Below, one piece after another: positions 28,040 to 33,692 of a stretch of 64,000 bases of DNA. The notes under the pieces are model-generated. The model did not search any database. It was not told where the DNA came from and was given only the letters and a program-made list of their open reading frames with translations. The DNA comes from Roseomonas sp. HF4 (lineage in GTDB: Bacteria; Pseudomonadota; Alphaproteobacteria; Acetobacterales; Acetobacteraceae). Numbering within the stretch: position 1 is the stretch's first letter; each line of letters opens with the position of its first letter. A program made the position numbers and the translations under genes. Location of the stretch: the NCBI RefSeq assembly GCF_005222755.1, contig NZ_STGD01000005.1, positions 1 through 64,000 of the forward strand, written 5' to 3'.

Positions 28040-31000
28040 CTACCGCGCAACGGCGGCGATCGGGAAGGACCGCAATTCCCGCTGCGCGGCGCGGAACACG
28101 GCGTTCTGCTGGTGTCCCTTCTCGCGCGCCAGTTGCGGCACGCGGCGCATGACCCATTCGCCGAGCGCCAGCGCCGTCACGCGCCCCTCGGCATCGGCCG
28201 CCGCGCGTCCGCGCAGGCCCTCCATCAGCGCATAGGCGAAGACGCCGTTGCGGTCGTCGTAGGAATCGAGCGCCTCCTGCACGCTCGACGAGGCCGCCAG
28301 CAGGAACCGGCCCGTGTCGTTGCCGATCGCGGCGAGCTGGTCGATGTCGATCTGCCCGGCGTAGCAGGTGTCGATCATGATGAAGGCGTCGCGCGCGCGG
28401 ATGCGTGCCAGCGCCGCGACCAGCGTCGCGTCGTCGATGCCCTGCTGGCGCAGTGCCGCCATGCTGCTCGTGTCCCGCACGTCGGACGGCAGGAACAGGA
28501 AGCGGTTGCCGGGCTGCGCCACGATGCCGTGGCCGGCGATGTACAGGATGAAGGTGTCCGCCGGCGCGGTATCGCGCGCGGCGGCCGCCAGAGCGTCCAG
28601 CACGCCGCGGCGCGTCGCCCGGCCATCGGGCAGCATCCGCACGTCGACGTCGCGGAACAGCCCGGCGCCGGCCGCCCGCAGGGCATCGCCGACCGAACGC
28701 GCGTCGGGCGCCGCGAAGCGAAGGTCGAGGTCCGACAGCGCGTAGTCGTTGACGCCCACCGCCAGGACCACCAGGCGGCCGAGGCCGGGCGCCACCTCCG
28801 GTTCCCCGGGACGGCGCAACGTCAGCGTCGGGCCTTCGGAGAACAGCACGCCGTCGCTGCCATAGAGCCGCGTCGCGATCCGGTTGGAGCCGCCATCGAG
28901 GGGAACCTCGACGCTGGTGTCGCCCGCCGAGGGTTCGGCGCGGGCCGCGATCCGGTCGTTCACGAGGACATCGAGCGGCCCGAAGCCCAGCCCCCGGTCG
29001 GTCGCGGTGAAGCCCATGCGGAGCGCGCGCGCCCCTTCGGGCAGCGCGCGCGCGTCCCACCCGATGGGCTGGCATTCCTCCCCCACCACGGCGCAGAGGG
29101 TGCCGCCGGCCAGCAGCGGCAACCGGCCGATCCGGCTGCGCACTTCCCCGAGCTGCGCGAGTCGTTCCTGCGCGGGGGCGAAATCCCCCGCGATCCGCCC
29201 GCGCACGGCCCGTGGCGCATAGAGCGCGCGATAGGCCTGCTGGAACGACGCCCATTCCGGCGTCTGGTTGCGTCCGGCATTGAGGTGGACGCCCACCAGT
29301 TCCTGCCCGCCATTGGCGCCGTGGTCGAACAGCCCCTCCGGCGTCCAGAGCACCCAGCGCAGCGTTTCGGCGTGGACGAACAGCGCGGCGATCTCGCGCA
29401 GCGCCCCCGCCTCGAAGCGGTACCAACGGATGGTGCCGTCGCCGAGCGCCGCGACCCCCATCTCGCCGGCCACGGACACGCCCCAGACGGCGCCCGGCGT
29501 CGGCACGGAATCGATCAGCCGGCCGCGCGCGTCATACATCCGGAGGTGGTTGTCGGTGCCCAGCAGGAAGCCATCCTCGTTCACCAGGATCGCAAGGCTG
29601 CGGGCGAATTCGCCCTCGCCCATCTGCAGCGGCTGGTTGCCGAGGCGCGGCCTGTTCGAATTGCGCCAGTCGAGCACGCGCAGCCGCGGTGTCTCGGTGC
29701 GCGCGACGCTGAAGCCCGCCTCTCCGCGCCAGGCGGCCAGGCTGCCGGTCAGCGGGTCGAAGACCAGCGGCGCGCCCCCCGCGCGAAGCGAGAACAGCGG
29801 CTGCGTGCCGTCGGCCGAAAGCGCCAGCGTCACGCCCGTGTTGCGGAAGTCGCCACCCGGCGAATGCGGCGCGAGGGCAAGTGTCCCGTCCGGCGCGATC
29901 AGGCCCCAGCCCGGATCGGCCGCGGCGTAGGCAAGGCCGCCCTGCGGCAGCGGCAACAGGTGCGCGATCGCATCTCGCGCCGCGGCGATGTCGGTCGAGG
30001 GGCCGAGGCCGAAATCGGCCCACCGCCGGATCAGGAATTCCCGCGGCGAATCCGCCGGCGTCGCCGGTGCGGCGGCGGGCGCTGCCGGCTGCTGCTCCCG
30101 CACCGCCAGCCCGCGCGAGCCGGCGGAGGTCGTGCTGCCGGCATCGCCACGCGCGCCCCCGCCCGGGCGGGGCGGGGCGGCGGGCCGCGTGCCGGGCGCC
30201 GGTGCCGCGACGGCGCGTTGCGGCCGCGCATAGCCCGCGGCGTGGAGCTGCACGCCGCCGCGCGCATCATGCGCCCAGGTGACGGCCGGCAGGCCCTCCC
30301 CCGCCAGGCCCGAGACATCGGGCGCGAAGACGGCGCGCAGGTCGGCCGCCGCCAGCACCTCGACGCGCAGCCGGTCCTCGAAGCCAACGGCGATCAGCGA
30401 CCCGTCGGGCGAGAAGGCAATGCCATAGGGCCGGGCGCCCTGCACAGGGGTGCGGTTCGCGATGCGCTGCCCGTCCGGTGCATAGACGCGGATGCCGCCA
30501 TCGGCGGAACTTGCCGCGAGCCGCCCCGCCGCGTCGAAGGCGACCATGCGGGCCGGGCCGGTATAGGCGCCGTCCTCGAAGACCAGGCGGCCGTTGCGCG
30601 CGTCCCACACCTTGATGCCGGCGCGCCCGCCGAGCGCCGCGGCTAGCCGCGTGCCGTCCGGGGAGAAGGCCAGGTGCTGCACGGGCGCCGCGAGCCCCGG
30701 CAGCCGCGCTTGCAGGCGCCCCGTGCGGGCATCGAACAGGTAAAGCGCGAAGCCGCCGTCCCAACTGCGCGCCGTGAAGCCCGCGGCGGCGACGCGCGCC
30801 CCGTCGGGCGTCATGGCGACGGCGTAGAGCTCCCCCTCCGGCCCCGTCCCCATCGGCGGGCGAATCACGAGGCGCTGCGACCCCTCGGGCAGGTTCCACA
30901 GCCGCAGCGTCTTGTCGTCGGACACGGTGGCGAGGACCGATCCCGTCGCATCGGTCGCGAGCCGCGCGACGGGCGCGATATGCGCCTCCGCCTCGATGCG

Positions 31001-31114
31001 GAGGAAGGGCTGCTGCGGCGGGCCGTCCGGCGCCTGCGGCCGGGCCGGCGCGCCTGGCAGGACCAGGAGCGCCGCCGCGAGCCAGAGGCCGCGGAGCAGG
31101 CGGCGCCCGCCCAT
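28040..31114 (-). CDS. Caspase-like (peptidase C14) protein with WD40-type propeller domains
   Basis: 1024 residues from the ATG at 31114, which starts a signal peptide (about 1-26). Residues about 40-330 hold WD40-like repeats (ATVSDDKTLRLWNLPEG, LAFSPDGTRLAAAL). A Pro/Ala/Gly-rich linker lies near 340-400, and a second propeller-like region at about 400-620. The C-terminal caspase fold is at about 785-1010, with the dyad H862 (YIAGHGIV) and C917 (IMIDTCYAGQ). The catalytic domain seems complete. Export to the periplasm is predicted. It is 4 nt downstream of an SH3/glycine-zipper lipoprotein gene, so both are likely one unit. Confidence 0.88.
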   Translation of the reverse strand: MGGRRLLRGLWLAAALLVLPGAPARPQAPDGPPQQPFLRIEAEAHIAPVARLATDATGSVLATVSDDKTLRLWNLPEGSQRLVIRPPMGTGPEGELYAVAMTPDGARVAAAGFTARSWDGGFALYLFDARTGRLQARLPGLAAPVQHLAFSPDGTRLAAALGGRAGIKVWDARNGRLVFEDGAYTGPARMVAFDAAGRLAASSADGGIRVYAPDGQRIANRTPVQGARPYGIAFSPDGSLIAVGFEDRLRVEVLAAADLRAVFAPDVSGLAGEGLPAVTWAHDARGGVQLHAAGYARPQRAVAAPAPGTRPAAPPRPGGGARGDAGSTTSAGSRGLAVREQQPAAPAAAPATPADSPREFLIRRWADFGLGPSTDIAAARDAIAHLLPLPQGGLAYAAADPGWGLIAPDGTLALAPHSPGGDFRNTGVTLALSADGTQPLFSLRAGGAPLVFDPLTGSLAAWRGEAGFSVARTETPRLRVLDWRNSNRPRLGNQPLQMGEGEFARSLAILVNEDGFLLGTDNHLRMYDARGRLIDSVPTPGAVWGVSVAGEMGVAALGDGTIRWYRFEAGALREIAALFVHAETLRWVLWTPEGLFDHGANGGQELVGVHLNAGRNQTPEWASFQQAYRALYAPRAVRGRIAGDFAPAQERLAQLGEVRSRIGRLPLLAGGTLCAVVGEECQPIGWDARALPEGARALRMGFTATDRGLGFGPLDVLVNDRIAARAEPSAGDTSVEVPLDGGSNRIATRLYGSDGVLFSEGPTLTLRRPGEPEVAPGLGRLVVLAVGVNDYALSDLDLRFAAPDARSVGDALRAAGAGLFRDVDVRMLPDGRATRRGVLDALAAAARDTAPADTFILYIAGHGIVAQPGNRFLFLPSDVRDTSSMAALRQQGIDDATLVAALARIRARDAFIMIDTCYAGQIDIDQLAAIGNDTGRFLLAASSSVQEALDSYDDRNGVFAYALMEGLRGRAAADAEGRVTALALGEWVMRRVPQLAREKGHQQNAVFRAAQRELRSFPIAAVAR

Positions 31115-31118
31115 CCGC

Positions 31119-32129
31119 TCAGCCGGCCAGTTCGAAGCCCTGGCCCTGGGCCAGGCGGTCGGCGTTCTGCACGCTCTCGGCGAAGTTGTCGCGGCGCGCG
31201 ATATTCGAGGCGGCGAGCTGGCGGAATTCCCCTTCCTGCCCACGGCCACCGACCTCCGCCCCCGTGCCGAGGCCGCGCACGCCGACAGCAGAGGCCGGCA
31301 CGTAGCCGCTGACGCCGGAGGAGGTGGTGACCTCGGCGAAATTGCCCTGGGCGGGGCGCACGGTCACCTGCTCGTTCGGGGCGATCTGGCCGATCGCGGG
31401 CGCACCGGCGTCGGGGCGGATCCGGATGGGTGCGGAGACGCGCGTCGTCGTCGGCTGCGGCGGCGCGCTCCGGCGCGCGGCCACCGCCTGCTTGGTGCCC
31501 GGGGCCAGCGTTTCGATCGCGGTGTCGAACTCGGCGCCGCGGGTGCCGATCTTGTCGTTGATGGCGCGCGCCAGCGCCACGTCGCGCCGCATCAGGTCGC
31601 GCTGGTAGGAGAGCTGCGCCACGGCCGCGTTGCGCGGCAGGCGCCCGGCCCGCGCGTCGCTGCGAATGCGGTTGGCCTCCATCACGCGGCAATCGACCAA
31701 CTGGTTGAAGGCGAGCTGCGTGCGGTCGAGCTGCGCGTTCTCGGTCCTGAGGTCGCCGCCCACCGCGACGACCAGGCTGGCCTGATCCTGCGCCTGTCGC
31801 TGGCGCGCCTGCAGGTAGCCGACGGTGCCGCCGACCACCGCACCGGCCAGAGCGCCGATCGCGGCGCCGATCAGGATGTCGGACCCGCGCCGGCCCGTCG
31901 CCGCCGCGATGCCGCCGCCGGCGATCGCGCCGGTCGCGCCGCCGATCGCGGCCCCGCGAAGGATGTCCTCGCCGAAGAAGTCGCCGGTCGAGTCCAGCGC
32001 GACCACCTGCGCCCGGCACACGTCGCGCCCGTCATCGACCCCGATCCGGCCGGCCTGGGTGGAGACGCAACCGGCCAGCATGGCTGCGGCGGTGATGCTG
32101 GCGACCGAACGGCGGAGGGGAGCTCGCAT
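31119..32129 (-). CDS. Lipoprotein with glycine zipper, helical region and SH3 domain
   Basis: 336 residues from the ATG at 32129. Lipobox LAGC at Cys21 predicts a lipoprotein. A glycine zipper follows at about 58-105 (GAAIGGATGAIAGGGIAAAT, then IGALAGAVVGGTVGYL), which may insert in a membrane. A coiled region lies at about 105-215. An SH3-like domain (about 230-295: IRPDAGAPAIGQIAPNEQV) comes before the C-terminus. The domain mix suggests cell-envelope sensing or peptidoglycan contact. First gene of a two-gene unit with the caspase-like protein. Confidence 0.8.
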   Translation of the reverse strand: MRAPLRRSVASITAAAMLAGCVSTQAGRIGVDDGRDVCRAQVVALDSTGDFFGEDILRGAAIGGATGAIAGGGIAAATGRRGSDILIGAAIGALAGAVVGGTVGYLQARQRQAQDQASLVVAVGGDLRTENAQLDRTQLAFNQLVDCRVMEANRIRSDARAGRLPRNAAVAQLSYQRDLMRRDVALARAINDKIGTRGAEFDTAIETLAPGTKQAVAARRSAPPQPTTTRVSAPIRIRPDAGAPAIGQIAPNEQVTVRPAQGNFAEVTTSSGVSGYVPASAVGVRGLGTGAEVGGRGQEGEFRQLAASNIARRDNFAESVQNADRLAQGQGFELAG

Positions 32130-33440: not shown

Positions 33441-33496
33441 CGAAATCTGTTGCGGCGCGGCGCTGCGGCGGTGCAGCATCGCCACGTCAACAAACG

Positions 33497-33559
33497 AAAG
33501 GAGGTGATCCGGTGTCTCATCGCTTCATTCGGGCTGTCGCGCCCGTGGCCCGGATCACC
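33497..33559 (+). promoter_or_regulatory. Self-sequestering Shine-Dalgarno hairpin (SD and anti-SD in one RNA)
   Basis: AAAGGAGGTGATCC at 33497-33510 is a full 14-nt complement of the usual bacterial 16S rRNA 3' end, far longer than normal ribosome sites. GGTGATCCGG (33503-33512) can pair perfectly with CCGGATCACC (33550-33559). The latter contains GGATCACC, which is the anti-SD sequence itself. The stem would hide half of the SD core and the first base of the GTG start. The 3' arm lies inside the ORF (codons 13-16), so a translating ribosome would open it. Confidence 0.7.
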
Positions 33560-33571
33560 GCGGGGCGCTAG
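33512..33571 (+). CDS. 19-codon ORF behind a perfect Shine-Dalgarno sequence
   Basis: GTG at 33512, 7 nt after the GGAGG core, encodes VSHRFIRAVAPVARITAGR and ends at TAG 33569-33571. The ORF lies 71 nt after the livK stop and 51 nt before a strong terminator, so it may be the tail of the livK transcript or an independent small RNA. The peptide is basic with an amphipathic pattern. It may be a leader-type ORF where the act of translation matters more than the product. No known family recognised. Confidence 0.55.
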   Translation: MSHRFIRAVAPVARITAGR

Positions 33572-33621
33572 GCGCCGCGGGTCACCAGGGTTTCGCGGGC
33601 CGCACACCGGCCACGCGATGG

Positions 33622-33653
33622 GAAGGCCCCGGGGGGGAACCCCCGGGGCCTTC
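33622..33653 (+). terminator. Strong rho-independent-type terminator
   Basis: A perfect 14-bp GC-rich stem (GAAGGCCCCGGGGG with CCCCCGGGGCCTTC) and a GGAA loop, followed by TGCGTTCC. The U content is low, as often in GC-rich genomes. It ends the livK/short-ORF transcript. Confidence 0.8.
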
Positions 33654-33692
33654 TGCGTTCCATGACGCCATGCGCCGTGGCAGGATCCCGCC

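Follow-up and report, generated by a model that had tools for sequence, protein, structure and literature searches.

A putative translated RNA related to Rfam CC2171, with a maximal Shine-Dalgarno sequence, in Roseomonas sp. HF4 and other Alphaproteobacteria

We analysed a 64,000-nt stretch of Roseomonas sp. HF4 (contig NZ_STGD01000005.1, positions 1 to 64,000; hereafter the window), in which a short element lies on the + strand downstream of a gene for a periplasmic binding protein (Peripla_BP_6, E=2.5e-55), consistent with the position behind livK given in an earlier note on this DNA; the next genes after the element encode an ankyrin-repeat protein and a sulfatase. Elsewhere in the window, 28043-31249 (- strand) encodes a protein of 1069 aa that combines WD40 repeats with a caspase domain (Peptidase_C14, E=2.6e-8). 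As the earlier note stated, the element contains a Shine-Dalgarno (SD) of full 16S length: the 14-nt AAAGGAGGTGATCC occupies 33497-33510, and with G33496 added, direct reading of the sequence gives a complement of 15 nt to GGAUCACCUCCUUUC, the 16S tail as generally established and not as read from this genome. Taken as GAAAGGAGGTGATCC plus GG (33496..33512), this maximal SD, recognized from sequence, genome counts and duplex energies, can pair with the 16S 3' end over as many as 17 bp, one of them G-U. The start codon GTG (33512-33514) lies 1 nt past AAAGGAGGTGATCC and opens the 19-codon ORF MSHRFIRAVAPVARITAGR (33512..33571, TAG stop at 33569-33571), so that this part of the earlier description also holds at the window; the ORF is supported by sequence reading and a frame test, and dN/dS among relatives detects no purifying selection on its peptide.

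The remaining parts of the element, all on the + strand, surround this core. A putative sigma70-type promoter (33450..33479; -35 TTGCGG at 33450-33455, -10 CAGCAT at 33474-33479) has its TTG at -62 relative to the start codon and would place the transcription start at about 33486. It is followed by an A/C-rich 5' leader, CAACAAAC (33488..33495), which is conserved in position profiles and at which the consensus of Rfam family RF01867 begins. Two helices recur across the related loci. In H1, supported by folding and alignment, the 3' part of the SD together with the first base of the start codon (GGTGATCCGG, 33503..33512) pairs over 10 bp with an anti-SD arm inside the ORF (CCGGATCACC, 33550..33559). 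In P1, supported by folding and covariation, codons 2-4 (TCTCATCGC, 33515..33523; the RF01867 consensus pairs the same region) face GCGATGGGA (33615..33623), which adjoins the terminator. A second anti-SD-like segment, GCGGGTCACC (33577..33586), lies 3' of the stop codon; in a duplex scan of L196, a copy of the window locus, it is the segment that pairs best with the SD. The element closes with an intrinsic terminator seen in sequence and folding, a GC-rich stem-loop at 33623..33652 with a weak T tail (33651-33659), whose stem begins 51 nt past the ORF, as the earlier note had it; the RF01867 match ends at 33651.

The predicted duplex between the SD region (33480-33520) and 16S reaches -32.3 kcal/mol over 17 bp, or -29.7 kcal/mol when the 20 nt before the start codon are used; among 258 mechanically listed ORFs of at least 100 aa in the window, the best duplex is -17.3 and the median -6.5. 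By arithmetic with equal base use, chance would produce a given 14-mer about 5e-4 times in 64 kb. In Caulobacter, an SD is reported on only 24.6% of CDSs in the consulted part of a ribosome profiling study (PMC4117421). When GGCTGGATCACCTCCTTT followed by a non-T base was searched, 1 of 13 genomes matched, and GGATCACCTCCTTT was found in nine of 11 genomes, always only as the antisense of the element; because these matches are so few or antisense-only, rRNA genes seem to be absent or masked in the genome assemblies.

We then looked at how widely the element is spread. The genome itself has one exact copy of the 13-mer. A pattern with both arms matches 12 of 99 genomes including the window's own, ten of them with the element and two (L002, L003) by chance. 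Allowing up to three mismatches, the SD-plus-start pattern matches 176 of 397 family genomes (a few of the listed matches are plainly chance) and has no match in the other 221. The 14-mer alone, with one base set so that normal 16S is excluded, occurs at 90 sites in 88 of 389 Alphaproteobacteria genomes (the unbiased set), and the reversed pattern at three. A start codon (ATG, GTG or TTG) stands at exactly 1 nt in 81 of the 90 sites, at 0 nt in two and at 2 nt in one, and is missing from six; three of the nine sites without the 1-nt spacing, all among the six startless ones, are 16S variants. Considering the 83 sites with spacing 1 or 0, the G that lengthens the SD to 15 nt is found in 78, and the first base of the start codon is A in 42, G in 36, T in five and C in none. 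A scan of named genomes for AAAGGAGGTGATCCNGTGTC gave at least 118 stretches; among the 80 matches listed, two are gammaproteobacterial and unrelated-looking (L092, L120), a few are placed to phylum only, and the rest are from Alphaproteobacteria, including Rhodobacteraceae, Hyphomicrobiales, Caulobacterales, Acetobacteraceae, Sphingomonadales and others, some placements following genus names that we take to indicate the lineage.

For the comparative sets, a further 80 family loci were taken from the listed SD-plus-start matches, leaving out contig-edge, poor and some other matches. The window copies L001 and L185 and the chance matches L002 and L003 were removed, as were nine loci without a usable element by regular expression: L015 (poor match), L135 (56-aa ORF; the only locus skipped for ORF length), L170, L180, L181, L184, L186, L187 and L190. 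L327 is cut off by a contig end. The counts given here include sequences that are related to one another. In IMG/VR the pattern is found on six viral contigs (L370-L375): L370, L371 and L373 have peptides of the Bradyrhizobium type, L372 resembles L117 (Methylobacterium), the L375 peptide is identical to that of L083 (Brevundimonas), and L374 is a longer, unrelated ORF. The contig edge is close to the element in L371 (at 37) and L375 (98 nt from the end). This suggests that the viral copies are probable host flanks, either prophage flanks or a nearby integration site. The earlier note had proposed to check relatives for conservation of the SD, ORF and arms with covariation; the SD, start, ORF and hairpin are kept far beyond close strains, and by sequence comparison the putative RNA gene is present in many Alphaproteobacteria.

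At the gathering threshold, Rfam gave no match in the window. A search by E-value threshold aligned 33488-33651 end to end with RF01867 (CC2171; model positions 1-159) at 69.5 bits (E=1.1e-14), which misses the family's membership cut-off of 75. On this alignment, the window locus is a sub-threshold homologue of RF01867, and not a filed member. Related loci lie on both sides of the cut-off: L075 (Falsiroseomonas stagni) scores 75.5 and six of 13 related loci score above 75, while the distant lineages L068, L260, L197, L049 and L208 score 30.5-41.7 bits. Across the class, 94 of 387 genomes match at E<=0.001, 14 of them above the cut-off; among 14 named control genomes, only Caulobacter vibrioides matches. 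The leader, SD and start consensus of the family, CAACAAUCGAAAGGAGGUGAUCCAGUGUCUCAU, is matched nearly completely in the window alignment, and its long-range helix (CAUuGuC with GaCaAUG) is present as CAUCGC paired with GCGAUG, together with the 3' terminator hairpin. The earlier note knew of no named system with this exact layout; as a locus the element is not new, being homologous to RF01867. As for published work, the excerpted Rfam 15 table of R-scape-improved families credits CC2171/RF01867 with one additional covarying pair, and the family also appears in the excerpted sRNA prediction table of Mesorhizobium huakuii. In the texts retrieved for CC2171/RF01867 (supplements lay outside the search), translation or function of the RNA is not described, and searches by SD and start-context strings returned only unrelated-looking papers among the matches listed; claims of novelty are limited to this literature.

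Evidence on the ORF comes from a frame test on 148 loci, made non-redundant by keeping identity over codons 6-20 below 70%; they are related and hence not independent events. Codons 2-13 contain a stop in none of the 148 loci in the start-codon frame, vs 63 and 42 in the other two frames (0 of 59 vs 28 and 27 in the unbiased subset), and ORFs of 18-40 codons are found in 140 loci in the start frame vs 38 and 50 off-frame. In all 115 loci with a detected terminator the stop precedes it, with a median gap of 43 nt; reading in the other frames runs past it in 28 and 38 loci. We weighed the filing of RF01867 as it stands, i.e. a purely non-coding base-pairing sRNA whose start codon and ORF are incidental. 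Rfam lists the family as an sRNA and the helices are conserved, and most Caulobacter ncRNA regions are called untranslated in the consulted part of PMC4117421; but the start at fixed spacing in 81 of 90 sites and the strong frame effect argue against it, and an alignment of 69 MSH-type sequences (A1) shows no long conserved segment outside the leader, SD, start, arms and terminator. We consider the purely non-coding explanation very improbable. The ORF instead looks real: it appears to be translated, with constrained length and position and with a peptide sequence under no detectable constraint. The same part of PMC4117421 reports ribosome profiling in which two earlier predicted Caulobacter ncRNAs are translated. 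CC2171 may be one of these two, and translation would then be partly known already; it may instead be among the ncRNAs called untranslated, which would weigh against the reading as a translated RNA. In Sinorhizobium, 33% of 54 new sORFs found by Ribo-seq are on annotated sRNAs, according to the consulted part of PMC10117765.

If the ORF is translated, one account would be a small-protein gene, with the peptide as product and the maximal SD serving very strong translation. The constrained start codon, frame and ORF length fit such a gene. The peptides themselves look unrelated between lineages (MSHC..TW, MSSE..EQP, MSRKVLERGVGT, KRCHLAGIAR), and dN/dS, computed on equal-length pairs differing by 2-35%, is 1.32 in Acetobacteraceae (305 pairs; off-frame controls 0.83 and 0.68), 0.86 in the Rhodobacterales type (507 pairs; 0.63 and 0.78) and 0.86 in the other MSH type (55 pairs; 1.07 and 0.88, only slightly higher). 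Purifying selection on the peptide is thus not detectable by dN/dS in these three sets: in the first two the ratio is not below the off-frame controls, and in the third it is slightly below. In Acetobacteraceae ORFs the third codon positions vary less than the first and second, and the TW and EQP motifs coincide with the anti-SD arms. Since a structured RNA lowers dS and since Trp recurs, some constraint on the peptide is possible. An in-frame Trp is found in 141 of 201 MSH-type peptides (ORFs of at least 45 codons left out); it usually lies within the anti-SD arm CTGGATC, and the codon that follows is more variable than the Trp codon. This Trp is the best remaining evidence for a peptide role. 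The same SD also heads ORFs of 55-58 aa with signal-peptide-like starts in L197, L200, L226, L280, L281 and L135, and in L197, L200, L280 and L281 the first codons still match the pre-terminator segment over 6 bp. With the 55-58 aa ORFs (those of L197, L200, L226, L280 and L281) and the Trp counted in its favor, and the drift of the peptides against it, we regard the small-protein explanation as unlikely, but deserving real weight. What the comparison suggests is that the act of being translated, and not the peptide made, is what matters.

Across 309 loci, a TTG peak is seen upstream of the start codon at -66 to -64; promoter scores are 5.25 vs 4.27 in mononucleotide shuffles, and 46% vs 5% reach at least 5.5. 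Neighboring genes are common within orders and not between them, and the next gene is often antiparallel. Immediately upstream, 24 of 39 Acetobacteraceae loci encode a periplasmic binding protein. In the Rhodobacterales type, the upstream protein (34 of 37 loci) is one that we take to be queuosine-precursor-transporter-like, and 24 downstream GGQ-motif proteins in the 37 loci are presumably ArfB-like; in five Bosea or Methylobacterium loci the downstream protein is presumably RNase R-like. We note that in this Rhodobacterales type (e.g. L045, L049, L144) the element sits between the transporter-like gene and, mostly, the arfB-like ribosome-rescue gene; a link between the element and ribosome rescue is possible. 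A small ORF followed by a terminator, together with these 24 ArfB-like proteins, could be taken as a leader or attenuator of the downstream gene. The downstream genes, however, vary between orders and are often antiparallel, those in the window encode an ankyrin-repeat protein and a sulfatase, and with the stop before the terminator a terminating ribosome would rarely reach the terminator. We rejected the leader on this indirect test (stop 5' of the terminator in 115 of 115 loci, no downstream gene common across orders) and consider it the most improbable of the explanations. The promoter signal and the varied neighbors both speak against a leader or cis control, and the sequence data are best explained by a transcription unit of its own, about 165 nt long.

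Helix P1 was evaluated on A1, which consists of 68 sequences hand-picked for spread out of 147 de-duplicated loci (terminator present in 211 of 214) plus the window; formal testing of P1 used a set without Rhodobacterales. In the relatives, codons 2-5 pair with the stretch adjoining the terminator. On A1, 90.2% of P1 cells are paired (23-69% in slid controls), and 33 cells are double-changed vs 12.0 +/- 2.8 in shuffles, none of 500 being as high, although two of five covariation measures give weak results, with 96 and 21 of 500 shuffles as high. An alignment-free test finds runs of at least 6 bp in 39 of 80 unbiased loci vs a mean of 20.4% (maximum 30.8%) with swapped arms. Of 119 loci from Acetobacteraceae, 80 have an exact complement to codons 3-4 downstream, and non-cognate complements are present in 56 of 833 trials. 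P1 has just 3 bp in L217, L218, L250 and L260, and the terminator is undetected in seven of 255 loci. By comparison of sequences, P1 is shown to be a conserved, covarying helix. In L308, L311, L313 and L315, which are related Acetobacteraceae loci, CATGG with CCATG replaces CATTG with CAATG, a separate compensatory change.

Helix H1 is paired in 86.9% of cells across A1 (P1 and H1 together, 88.6%). Its 5' arm has little freedom to vary, being bound to match 16S; covariation of H1 depends mainly on one free position, which is A-U in 45 sequences, G-C in 11 and unpaired in 13 of the 69 (sequences, not independent events). The earlier note had suggested that the internal arm mimics 16S and might bind the SDs of other messages. 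At this free position the arm follows the RNA's own SD, so the suggestion is not borne out; as a main reading, 16S mimicry trapping other SDs was rejected, since the arm mostly tracks the RNA's own -1 base and departs from the 16S sequence. Typical anti-SD arms are CTGGATC, GGAGCAACCTC and GGGATCGCC. Of 80 loci, 64 have the best partner of the SD within the ORF and 16, the window among them, have it 3' of the ORF; compared with dinucleotide shuffles, downstream anti-SD partners average -15.1 vs -12.6, with p<=0.05 in 21 of 80 loci and p>=0.5 in nine. After the stop, 36 of 37 Rhodobacterales-type loci have a CCTCC-like stretch; the expression used is broad and matches 192 of 740 shuffles as well. 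An anti-SD arm within the ORF means that a translating ribosome would melt H1, as the earlier note supposed; this agrees with the family at large, but in the window the best partner (33577-33586) is past the ORF, though an in-ORF arm is also present.

Folding of successive RNA lengths predicts that the two helices form at different stages. For nascent RNA 33486-33560, the predicted probability of H1 is about 1; it falls to 0.12 with the end at 33575 and to 0 at 33600, where the SD is in other pairs. P1 is predicted at 0.76-0.99 for 33486-33624 and at 0.22-0.68 for the full-length RNA (33486-33653), in which H1 has 0.06-0.07 and the SD is mostly unpaired save for a weak 3-bp pairing within itself. 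The hairpin between SD and anti-SD described in the earlier note is thus found as 10 bp, kept across A1 and predicted in full in the nascent RNA, but it is scarcely predicted at full length, and P1 had been missed. The predicted energies are nearly equal (-98.1 kcal/mol with P1, -97.0 with H1 forced). In a longer-ended fold (33441-33670) the minimum lacks P1, so the choice of RNA ends matters. Since H1 and P1 cross, they probably compete, and they are mutually exclusive in the fold model; they might also coexist as a pseudoknot, which this model cannot score.

Pairing between the first codons and the 3' end raises a further explanation, a type I toxin-like mRNA whose toxic peptide is silenced by a 5'-3' fold-back until the RNA is processed. 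In hok-type mRNAs a small ORF is silenced by pairing of the 5' and 3' ends, and such an mRNA would have what is seen here: a short ORF, a strong SD and pairing of start-proximal codons with the 3' end next to the terminator. By eye, no obvious hydrophobic peptide is common to the lineages, there is mostly one site per genome (90 sites, 88 genomes), and a search of 72,556 plasmid records with the window element itself, in place of its diverged relatives, gives no match at E<=1e-5. We consider the toxin-like explanation quite improbable.

The reading that we prefer, and hold to be evenly balanced between right and wrong, is that of a free-standing, translated and bistable RNA, homologous to RF01867, whose fold would depend on ribosome loading. 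Its SD, start codon, reading frame, anti-SD arm, P1, terminator and promoter-like signal are established by comparison of sequences. During synthesis, H1 would mask the SD first. When the 3' end is complete, P1 could replace H1, leaving the SD largely free and the codons just past the start clamped, and a 30S subunit could then bind the SD but would have to open P1 to initiate. An elongating ribosome crossing the anti-SD arm would keep H1 open for the next one, so that H1 and P1 would be exchanged with transcription and ribosome loading, and whether the RNA is loaded and open or instead closed would be decided by ribosome supply. The drifting peptide, the varied neighbors and an ORF that stops short of the terminator make it likely that the output is in trans and not through the peptide or a downstream gene; most likely it acts via the RNA or the ribosomes held, which is our guess as to the final step. 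A broader proposal, which we find doubtful, is that of a class-wide ribosome-sensing RNA: its conserved partner would be the 30S subunit through the 15-17 bp duplex with 16S, loading opposed by the P1 clamp and the anti-SD arm would report or buffer free ribosomes, and the ORF would be kept only as a fixed-length ribosome track, its peptide being of no account. The preferred reading matters in several respects. Many members of the class appear to translate an RNA whose family Rfam files as a Caulobacter sRNA, with near-maximal SD pairing. Should the length of the ORF be what counts, and its sequence not, bacteria would offer here an example in which the act of translation is itself conserved. 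The data also suggest that TW, EQP and similar peptide motifs can arise as by-products of anti-SD arms, a warning for small-protein annotation.

Compared with known systems, the element shares with RF01867 the 5' leader, SD, start region, helix between start-proximal and pre-terminator segments, and terminator, the family consensus containing the SD, GUG and UCUCAU; it differs in that Rfam types the family as sRNA, the ORF and the in-ORF anti-SD arm being apparently outside its description. With hok and similar type I toxin mRNAs it has in common a small ORF and 5'-3' end pairing, but no toxin-like peptide family is seen here and the paired 5' arm lies within the first codons. SgrS and Spot 42 are dual-function sRNAs whose peptide is considered functional; they are sRNAs that are also translated, as this element appears to be, whereas here the peptide drifts. 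Measured as a dual-function sRNA, the element has an ORF that looks real in the frame test and a peptide without purifying selection detectable by dN/dS. Also close is rnTrpL/peTrpL of Sinorhizobium meliloti, in the consulted part of PMC10117765 a dual-function sRNA with a translated 14-aa ORF and likewise a small alphaproteobacterial RNA; its sORF is leaderless and lies in the trp attenuator, whereas the element described here has no common downstream gene and its ORF is preceded by a leader and a maximal SD.
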